Assembly: GCF_002288305.1 (NCBI RefSeq)
Contig: NZ_CP016779.1
Coordinates: 124,001-188,000 of the forward strand
From: Candidatus Nanopelagicus abundans
GTDB taxonomy: Bacteria; Actinomycetota; Actinomycetes; Nanopelagicales; Nanopelagicaceae
DNA length: 64,000 nucleotides
Reading direction: 5' to 3'
Part shown: positions 4,837 to 7,912 of the stretch, one piece after another
Position numbering within the stretch: the stretch's first letter is position 1
Layout of the letters: each line of letters opens with the position of its first letter
Notes under the pieces: generated by a model
What the model saw: only the letters and a program-made list of their open reading frames with translations
Databases searched by the model: none
Told to the model about the DNA's origin: nothing
Program-made: the position numbers and the translations under genes

Positions 4837-5058
4837 TTGGCCAAGAAAGACGGTGCTATTGAGATCGAAGGCACTGTTGCTGAAGCACTACCGAACGCAA
4901 TGTTCCGAGTTGAGTTAACAAATGGACATAAAGTTTTAGCACATATCAGTGGAAAGATGCGACAGAACTACATTCGTATTTTGCCAGAAGATAAAGTGAT
5001 TGTAGAACTTAGTCCATATGACCTCACTAGAGGTCGAATTATTTATCGTTACAAATAA
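4837..5058 (+). CDS. infA: Translation initiation factor IF-1
   Basis: IF-1 binds the ribosomal A site during initiation. The 73-residue protein is a single OB fold with family hallmarks: [20 protein letters not shown], then [20 protein letters not shown] and the terminal [15 protein letters not shown]. The start is a TTG at 4837, which gives the normal N-terminus MAKKDG; the upstream AAGTAGG is the likely ribosome-binding site. rpmJ follows after 35 bases, the usual actinobacterial order. Confidence 0.97.
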
Positions 5059-5093: not shown

Positions 5094-5207
5094 GTGAAGG
5101 TCAAACCTAGCGTGAAAAAGATTTGCGACAAGTGCAAAGTTATTCGTCGTAATGGCCGCGTAATGGTGATCTGCGACAACCTACGTCATAAACAACGTCA
5201 GGGTTAA
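5094..5207 (+). CDS. rpmJ: 50S ribosomal protein L36 (zinc-binding form)
   Basis: A 37-residue bL36, starting with GTG at 5094 behind an AGAAAGG ribosome-binding site and ending with TAA at 5207. The product begins [16 protein letters not shown]. It keeps the complete zinc ribbon: Cys11, Cys14, Cys27 and His32. It is therefore the C+ form, not the zinc-independent paralogue. It lies between infA and the structured leader of rpsM, in the expected position. Confidence 0.96.
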
Positions 5208-5230
5208 TTTAAAAAACGCGTGATGCGACG

Positions 5231-5321
5231 TAATTAAGGTAAAACTTAATTATGACCCTTAGTCCGAAAGGCTGAGGCCAGATAAGAAATTATCTGGGGG
5301 CATTGCGGAGGACCTTTCGGA
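5231..5321 (+). ncRNA. Structured leader RNA upstream of rpsM (candidate ribosomal-protein autoregulatory element)
   Basis: Three consecutive hairpins are visible between rpmJ and rpsM. Hairpin 1 has an 8-bp perfect stem (5231-5238 with 5245-5252). Hairpin 2 pairs 5257-5265 with 5270-5277, closes on a GAAA tetraloop and has a bulged T at 5263. Hairpin 3 has an 8-bp perfect stem (5278-5285 with 5290-5297), also with a GAAA tetraloop. In addition, TCCGAAAGG (5263-5271) is perfectly complementary to CCTTTCGGA (5313-5321), giving an alternative pairing or pseudoknot. The position matches the S4-regulated leader of the E. coli alpha operon. No T run follows, so it is not a simple terminator. The regulatory role is inferred. 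Confidence 0.6.
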
Positions 5322-5342
5322 TATTAGAAACAGGTTAACGAT

Positions 5343-5720
5343 ATGGCACGTCTTGTTGGTGTTGATCTTCCTCGCGAAAAGCGGCTAGAGATCGCACTTA
5401 CCTATATTTTTGGAATGGGACTTACCCGTGCGCAAGCAACACTTGCCGCTACCGGTATCTCACCAAACATCAGAGTTAAAGATCTACAAGAGCCAGAATT
5501 GGCAAAGCTTCGTGAATTCATTGAAGCCAATTATAAAATTGAGGGTGATCTTCGCCGTGAGATCGCTGGCGACATTCGTCGTAAAGTTGAAATTCAAAGT
5601 TACCAAGGTTCTCGTCACCGCAAAGGATTACCAGTCCGCGGTCAACGTACTCATACCAATGCTCGTACTCGCAAGGGTCCACGTGTTGCAATCGCTGGTA
5701 AGAAGAAGGAGACCAAGTAA
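5343..5720 (+). CDS. rpsM: 30S ribosomal protein S13
   Basis: Ribosomal protein uS13, in the head of the small subunit, contacting P-site tRNA and L5. The 125-residue product has the N-terminal helix-two-turn-helix region ([26 protein letters not shown] begins it) and the basic C-terminal tail with [22 protein letters not shown]. The ATG at 5343 has only a weak ribosome-binding site (CAGG), whereas a strong GGAGGA at 5307-5312 lies too far upstream and within the leader structure. First gene of the alpha operon; TAATG overlap with rpsK. Confidence 0.98.
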
Positions 5721-6154
5721 TGGCCGCCGAAAAAGCTAAACCAGCTAAAGAAGCAGCAGCAAAAGCTGCACCAAAGAAAATTAAAGCACGTAAGAAGGAT
5801 AAGAAAAATGTTGCCTTCGGTCATGCTTATATTAAGAGCACATTTAATAACACCATTGTTTCAATCACAGATCCAGCAGGTGGCGTAATTGCTTGGTCAT
5901 CATCTGGTCAGGTTGGATTTAAAGGTTCTCGTAAATCAACTCCATTTGCTGCGCAAATGGCTGCTGAGGCTGCTGCTCGTAAAGCGCAAGAGCACGGCTT
6001 AAAGAAAGTTGATGTATTTGTTAAGGGACCTGGCTCTGGCCGGGAAACTGCAATTCGTTCATTACAAGCAGCCGGTCTTGAAGTTGGAGCCATCGCAGAT
6101 GTAACTCCAGCACCACATAACGGTTGTCGTCCACGTAAACCACGTCGAGTATAA
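5720..6154 (+). CDS. rpsK: 30S ribosomal protein S11
   Basis: Ribosomal protein uS11, which lines the mRNA exit region of the 30S platform. The 144-residue product has an alanine/lysine-rich N-terminal extension of about 28 residues, common in actinobacteria, and then the S11 core ([42 protein letters not shown]). It ends in the conserved [16 protein letters not shown]. It starts in a TAATG overlap with rpsM, and rpsD follows after 16 bases. Confidence 0.98.
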
Positions 6155-6898: not shown

Positions 6899-7912
6899 GT
6901 GCTAATTGCACAACGCCCAATCCTCACTGAGGAAGTTGTAAGCGAATACCGTTCACGGTTCATTATTGAGCCGCTAGAACCTGGTTTCGGCTACACACTT
7001 GGTAATTCAATTCGTCGCACCTTATTATCTTCAATTCCAGGAGCAGCTGTTACTGGTATCAGAGTAAATAATGCGCTGCACGAATTCACTGCTTTAGAAG
7101 GTGTGAAAGAGGATCTAACTGAGATCGTCTTAAACATCAAAAACCTAGTTTTATCTTCAGATAATGATGAACCATCACTTCTTTACATCCGTAAAAATGG
7201 TGAGGGAATTGTTACTGGCGCAGATGTGGCTGCTCCAACAGGAGTTGCTGTGCACAATCCAGAACTTCACATTGCAACACTAAATTCAAAGGCAAAGTTT
7301 GAGATCGAGTTAACTGTTGAGCGTGGTCGTGGTTACATCACCGCGGTACAAAACAAAGCAGCAGGGGGAGAGATTGGCCGGATTCCGGTTGATTCAATTT
7401 ACTCACCAGTGCTTCGTGTTACCTACAAAGTAGAGGCAACACGTGTTGAACAACGAACCGACTTTGATCGATTAGTTCTAGATGTTGAGACCAAGAGATC
7501 AATGAAACCATCTGATGCAATGGCATCTGCTGGTAAGACATTAGTTGAGCTATTCGGCCTTGCGCGTGAATTAAATGCTAACGCTGAAGGAATTGAGATG
7601 GGACCTTCCATTCAAGATGCAGCACTCGCTGCAGATATGGCACTTCCAATCGAAGATCTTGATCTAACAGTTCGTTCTTATAACTGCTTAAAGCGCGAAG
7701 GAATTCACACAGTTGGTGAATTACTATCTCGCTCAGAGGCAGATCTAATGGATATTCGTAATTTCGGATCTAAATCAATTGATGAGGTTAAAGCGAAATT
7801 ACAATCTATGGGAATGCAACTTAAGGACAGCCCAGCAGGTTTTGATCCAACAAAGCATGCTAATTACGGAAGCAGTGTTGATGATGAACTTGTCGACGCT
7901 GAAGAGGTCTAG
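6899..7912 (+). CDS. rpoA: DNA-directed RNA polymerase alpha subunit
   Basis: The alpha subunit dimer nucleates RNA polymerase assembly, and its C-terminal domain contacts UP elements and activators. The 337-residue product has the N-terminal assembly domain ([22 protein letters not shown] at about 26-47) and the helix-hairpin-helix C-terminal domain ([22 protein letters not shown], about 258-280). The tail is acidic. The start is a GTG at 6899 behind a good GGAGGA site; a 101-base gap with a hairpin separates it from rpsD, and rplQ follows after eight bases. Confidence 0.98.

Follow-up and report, generated by a model that had tools for sequence, protein, structure and literature searches.

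A conserved pseudoknotted leader RNA before rpsM in the class Actinomycetes, a putative ribosomal-protein control element of the alpha operon

Several leader RNAs that respond to ribosomal protein S4 have been described. In Escherichia coli the alpha-operon leader (RF00140, Alpha_RBS) lies before rpsM and is bound by S4, with the result that the 30S subunit is trapped on the mRNA (PMC10931766). The S4 leader of Firmicutes (Bacillus) precedes rpsD instead and is without a pseudoknot (PMC10931766); its GUAA mimics rRNA, whereas the E. coli leader does without such mimicry. Candidate S4 leaders have further been predicted before rpsM-rpsK-rpsD-rpoA-rplQ in Clostridia and Fusobacteriales (Eckert and Weinberg, 2020, PMC7247131), the Fusobacteriales motif having GUAA in common with Firmicutes. 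A pseudoknot is nowhere mentioned in the text of that paper, and the S4 leaders given there come from Clostridia, Fusobacteriales, Bacteroidia and Flavobacteria, with Actinobacteria not among them. An actinobacterial leader with a pseudoknot upstream of the ribosome-binding site, where it is required for repression, is known from rpsO (S15) in mycobacteria (PMC10931766, PMC8470358). It is like the leader described here in these respects, but differs from it in gene, protein and, by description, structure.

The window analysed here is a stretch of 64,000 nucleotides (positions 124001-188000) from the complete 1.16-Mb genome of Candidatus Nanopelagicus abundans, and it holds the gene order infA, rpmJ, leader, rpsM, rpsK, rpsD, rpoA (Table 1). 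At the 3′ end of infA (5019-5036) there is a terminator-like hairpin, TGACCTCACTAGAGGTCG AATTATTTAT, of a kind for which the chance expectation in the stretch scanned is 0.5.

Table 1. Coordinates in the window of the rpsM leader elements and the genes around them
Feature	Position	Strand	Evidence
infA	4837-5058		
rpmJ (L36), precedes leader	5094-5207	+	ORF, tblastn
P1 5′ strand, CGUGAUGC, of the junction-closing 8-bp stem	5219-5226	+	MFE fold, covariation
P2 hairpin, 10 bp (5229-5238/5245-5254)	5229-5254	+	Fold; changes on both sides in 5/5 counted pairs
P3 5′ strand, CCUUAG	5257-5262	+	Fold, covariation; 97.6% of cells paired
P3 apical loop, UCCGAAAGG, = pseudoknot 5′ strand, 9 nt	5263-5271	+	Complementarity, covariation
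P3 3′ strand, CUGAGG	5272-5277	+	Fold, covariation
P4 hairpin, 8 bp, GAAA loop; optional	5278-5297	+	Fold; covariation of one P4 pair when aligned by sequence only
P1 3′ strand, GCAUUGCG	5300-5307	+	Fold, covariation
Linker, GAGGA; (A/C)(A/G)GA in relatives, not a Shine-Dalgarno	5308-5312	+	Family/class comparison
Pseudoknot 3′ strand, CCUUUCGGA	5313-5321	+	Covariation
Weak Shine-Dalgarno of rpsM, CAGG, 8 nt 5′ of AUG	5331-5334	+	Sequence; putative function
rpsM (ribosomal protein S13), first gene under putative control	5343-5720	+	ORF, homologs
rpsK (S11)	5720-6154	+	ORF, tblastn
rpsD (S4), single-copy in the source genome	6171-6797	+	ORF
rpoA	6899-7912	+	ORF, tblastn

The gap between rpmJ and rpsM folds far more stably than its composition would predict. 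For 5208-5345 the minimum free energy (MFE) is -45.4 kcal/mol (z = -6.5), which was equalled by none of 200 dinucleotide shuffles. The predicted structure is a four-way junction in which P1 encloses P2, P3 (5257-5277) and P4. An earlier note on this DNA, whose coordinates all proved correct on recheck, had described three hairpins. Their stems (5231-5238/5245-5252, 5257-5262/5272-5277 and 5278-5285/5290-5297) stand, the first being extendable to 5229-5238/5245-5254; the closing stem P1, which makes the whole a four-way junction, had been overlooked. As that note had also seen, TCCGAAAGG (5263-5271) and CCTTTCGGA (5313-5321) are perfect complements. It had taken this pairing to imply two alternative states. 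The pseudoknot does open the top of P3, but only two marginal pairs are lost (5264-5265/5270-5271) and the 6-bp stem stays intact; the proposed alternative is trivial. The GAAA tetraloops to which it had drawn attention are not conserved. A GGAGGA is present at 5307-5312, as reported, and rpsM (start 5343) has only a weak Shine-Dalgarno, CAGG. The former can be ruled out as an internal ribosome-binding site, being absent in relatives, which have TAGGA, CAGGA or CAGA instead. In the window the pseudoknot 3′ strand occupies -30 to -22 and ends about 20-22 nt 5′ of the rpsM AUG.

Conservation within the family was studied in 16 genera, on the regions upstream of their rpsM homologs. Every family leader can be assigned a P1, a P3 and a pseudoknot apart from one, L025, the contig of which ends early. 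In a sequence-only MAFFT alignment of 48 leaders, 91.2% of pair cells hold a standard pair, vs 33-43% after a shift of the partner strand by 1-3 columns, and P1 is paired in 98.7% of cells. Changes on both sides are seen in 27 of 33 pairs (6/8 in P1, 5/5 in P2, 5/6 in P3, 4/5 in P4 and 7/9 in the pseudoknot). Covariation was assessed with a custom-written, R-scape-like test, a G-test with average-product correction whose null alignments were generated by a replay of the inferred substitutions along a tree built with FastTree. On the family alignment it returned five significant pairs, four in the stems given above plus the pair that comes next inside P4. No pseudoknot pair was significant on this alignment, in which MAFFT misregisters the P3 loop. 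The arms of the stems are kept in close relatives with an intact rpsM, with the exception of P4, which some clades (L041, L044, L050, L051) lack, leaving a three-way junction there.

The core class alignment comprises 134 leaders, 117 of them distinct. Twelve column pairs are significant in it (E < 0.05, tree-based null), and all 12 belong to the model: five in P1, three in P3 and four in the pseudoknot. Because the class rows had been placed partly by pairing, the pseudoknot was retested with anchors that ignore pseudoknot pairing. In register, 86% (family) and 92% (class) of its pairs form, vs 38-57% out of register, and in this sequence-anchored test not one of 5000 between-species swaps matched the native pairing. 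Across the family and class tests, the covariation to which the earlier note had looked for support is found in P1, P2, P3, P4 and the pseudoknot 5263-5271/5313-5321. By the standards of comparative sequence analysis, support for the pseudoknot is as strong as the approach permits. Two unpaired segments are also conserved, AC directly 5′ of P3 and (A/C)(A/G)GA directly 5′ of the pseudoknot strand, which begins 25-35 nt 5′ of the AUG in the class-wide set. On this comparative evidence the element is almost certainly a conserved, cis-acting structured leader. The general ease with which hairpins form is all that speaks for hairpins that arose by chance in an intergenic gap rich in AT; this explanation is refuted by the class-wide covariation, with the folding z-score also against it, and can be given practically no weight.

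Covariance models were built for the family (R1) and for the whole class (R2). R1 matches 84 of the 101 genomes in a sample of the order, and also matches other families of the class weakly, nearly all of those matches preceding rpsM. R2 matches 195 of 247 class genomes, and 177 of the 222 of good quality. These prevalences are lower bounds, as the genome scans used strict filters and weak members such as G211 and G243 match only with the filters off. Named carriers include Oerskovia, Kineococcus, Gardnerella, Micromonospora, Kitasatospora, Streptacidiphilus, Mycobacterium, Frankia, Glycomyces and Planobispora. There is a single R2 match per genome with one listed exception, and the 3′ end of the match falls on the start codon of rpsM in every genome compared (about 65). 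The exception, G293, is the sole listed class genome with two matches. Among the 198 genomes of a phylum sample, R2 gave no match outside the class, all 15 matches lying within it, and in Coriobacteriia and Acidimicrobiia only a short gap, lacking any such element, separates rpmJ from rpsM. Within the class, an Acidothermus genome (L173) and one of the Jiangellaceae (L138) have a short rpmJ-rpsM gap, no leader and rpsD in the operon, and appear to be losses. Taken jointly with the whole reading of the element as a ribosomal-protein leader, we think it probable that the leader was ancestral to the class Actinomycetes or arose very early in it.

What has been found, a structured and covarying RNA conserved in the 5′ UTR of a ribosomal-protein operon, has the structural marks of a ribosomal leader. 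The nearest described relative in form is the E. coli alpha-operon leader, which shares both the gene position before rpsM and the core topology. A blind topology search recovered from the E. coli rpsM leader and from the window alike an outer stem, an inner hairpin and an inner loop paired downstream, a result given by 0 of 60 shuffles in each case. For E. coli, the search returned P1 as UGUGCGUU/AACGUACA, CUGAAA-ACGGGCU-UUUCAG as the inner hairpin, and ACGGGCU/GGCCCGU as the downstream pairing, which runs from +2 of the start codon and coincides with the known position of the pseudoknot. The earlier proposal of an actinobacterial counterpart of this leader is thus upheld by covariation and shared topology. 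Its further suggestion of a different structure holds in part: the core topology does not differ from that of E. coli, but the actinobacterial leader has two additional hairpins, P2 and P4, and a different place relative to the start codon. In E. coli the 3′ strand of the pseudoknot overlaps codons 1-4 and the ribosome-binding site lies inside the knot, whereas in the actinobacterial leader this strand lies 5 nt past P1, upstream of the ribosome-binding site, and the start codon is outside the knot. The covariance models do not cross the divide. RF00140 has no match in the window and none of 118 class genomes reaches its gathering cut-off (38 bits), and at the E. coli locus R2 scores no more than 6.5 bits. 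Membership of RF00140 through L109 was considered and rejected; its best score at the leader position is 19.3 of the 38 bits, mainly from S13 codons, and the stem pairs are poor.

The shared topology, found blind, suggests a mode of action like that of the alpha-operon leader in outline. Transcription attenuation can be set aside: there are no terminator-like sites inside the leader, and for this reason control is taken to be translational. An action on translation through a putative ribosomal-protein ligand is very probable in our judgement. The pseudoknot end, 22 nt 5′ of the AUG, adjoins the weak Shine-Dalgarno and is within reach of an initiating 30S subunit. In the proposed mechanism, which we find the most economical, excess ribosomal protein would bind the leader and stabilise the pseudoknot. 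At the adjoining weak ribosome-binding site this would block either the loading of 30S subunits or accommodation of the start codon, and translation of rpsM would fall, along with that of rpsK and the genes behind it by coupling. The rpsO leader of mycobacteria, with a pseudoknot that S15 repression requires and that is likewise placed ahead of the initiation site, serves as a precedent (PMC10931766).

The same Shine-Dalgarno could be reached in another way, if the CCU-rich 3′ strand of the pseudoknot paired alternatively with the rpsM Shine-Dalgarno region and formation of the pseudoknot freed it. The MFE fold of the window does show GACCUUUC/GAAACAGGUU (5313-5321 with 5328-5336), and the complementarity beats that of shuffled ribosome-binding regions (0/200). 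However, any CCUCC-like strand matches a Shine-Dalgarno, and species-swapped pairs are equally good (1678/2000 and 954/2000). As swapping between species costs the native pairs nothing, the alternative pairing is not tracked by evolution, and such a switch is quite improbable. On this swap test the hairpin, which would hide the Shine-Dalgarno, has no covariation support; it was rejected as a conserved state and is left out of the proposed mechanism.

An element without any protein ligand is only slightly easier to entertain, and we regard it as unlikely. Such a constitutive structure might set the rpsM:rpmJ translation ratio, offer a standby site to the ribosome or a site to S1, or protect or process the mRNA. 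Its fixed place and near-constant single copy per genome would suit these roles, and pseudoknots are high-affinity targets of S1 (PMC10931766). Against it, residues of linker and junction that are sequence-specific across the class, together with a complex fold, typify leaders that bind a protein or another ligand, and there is the precedent of E. coli.

The reading that we favour, and hold to be probable, is therefore that of an alpha-operon leader with a pseudoknot that mediates putative ribosomal-protein feedback on rpsM, with S4 as the likeliest ligand. For S4 itself, proposed on the model of the E. coli leader, whose topology is shared, we would put the chances at about even. If S4 does bind, the leader would share S4 autoregulation with the rpsD leader of Bacillus. 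Primary-sequence signatures of rRNA mimicry were sought and rejected. GUAA occurs in 29 of 69 family leaders and 3 of 65 class leaders (shuffle expectation 24.9 and 8.7) and is not conserved in the actinobacterial leader, unlike in the Firmicutes and Fusobacteriales motifs; local alignment of the leader to its own 16S, a comparison of primary sequence only, was no better than for shuffles (167/300). The missing 16S similarity and GUAA count against the favoured reading, although rRNA mimicry is absent from the E. coli S4 leader too. The E. coli pseudoknot embracing the start codon, when the actinobacterial one does not, also counts against it. So does the behaviour of rpsD, since the leader persists before rpsM where rpsD is elsewhere and the relocated rpsD is without it.

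This last point, a natural experiment, bears on the ligand. The genomes of Oerskovia, Kineococcus, Gardnerella, Brachybacterium, Kitasatospora, Streptacidiphilus and Glycomyces have rpoA immediately behind rpsK, with no rpsD between them, and the leader is retained in each case. In 17 sampled class genomes rpsD is far from rpsM, and their S4 is about 41-46% identical to that of the window. R2 matches each of the 20 regions tested upstream of rpsM, 15 of them from genomes with a distant rpsD, with scores of 24-66 bits, vs none of 20 regions upstream of extra-operonic rpsD copies, where no score exceeds 9.8 bits. The leader is therefore tied to rpsM-rpsK and not to rpsD. This would be expected if the ligand of the same pseudoknotted leader were S13 or S11, which are always encoded directly downstream; that the conserved features of the leader are unchanged in many distant-rpsD genomes despite so divergent an S4 points the same way. 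However, S4 is what the topologically matching E. coli leader binds, and S4 may act in trans on the leaders in genomes with a relocated rpsD. S13 and S11 are, moreover, not primary 16S binders, and we know of no leader for either. We therefore treat S13 or S11 as an alternative to be taken seriously, though well behind S4. With the same low probability, the pseudoknot could be the first leader under S13 or S11 (or another partner), providing feedback on the genes that never depart, with S4, replaced by distant paralogues elsewhere, under separate control. One sequence-based argument for S11, that the P3 loop CGGAGG/CCUCCG mimics an SD:anti-SD helix, was discarded, the pseudoknot sequences of Nanopelagicaceae, Gardnerella and Nocardioides being unrelated.

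The relocated rpsD genes have upstream features of their own. Before several extra-operonic copies (L219, L221, L222, L224, L236, L237) a palindrome such as TTAGGTTAGGCTCACCTAA stands just upstream of rpsD. We take it to resemble the iron box of DtxR/IdeR, and extra-operonic S4 genes may be under metal control. Relocated rpsD of the Streptomyces type (L220, L225, L226, L227, L228) has a long, conserved, GC-rich leader unrelated to that of rpsM, which is possibly a separate S4 leader; in L220 and L225, Rfam gave only a chance-level miRNA match.

A putative control RNA that is nearly universal in the class has apparently gone uncatalogued. Rfam 15 gave no match above gathering, whether for this region of the window or for ten further loci of the class, and full-text literature searches turned up no description. 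One 2024 survey of 50 genomes, Streptomyces avermitilis included, reports 30 ribosomal-leader candidates in its tables (PMC11109978), and the motif might be among them.

The leader sits on the operon for S13, S11, the alpha subunit of RNA polymerase and L17, in a class that is among the best studied of bacteria and includes Streptomyces, Mycobacterium, Bifidobacteriaceae and the freshwater acI lineage. Its topology, shared with the S4 target of E. coli, makes it testable whether the S4 pseudoknot switch is ancient or evolved twice, and since rpsD has been lost from the operon in nature more than once, the question of the ligand can be put cleanly by experiment.
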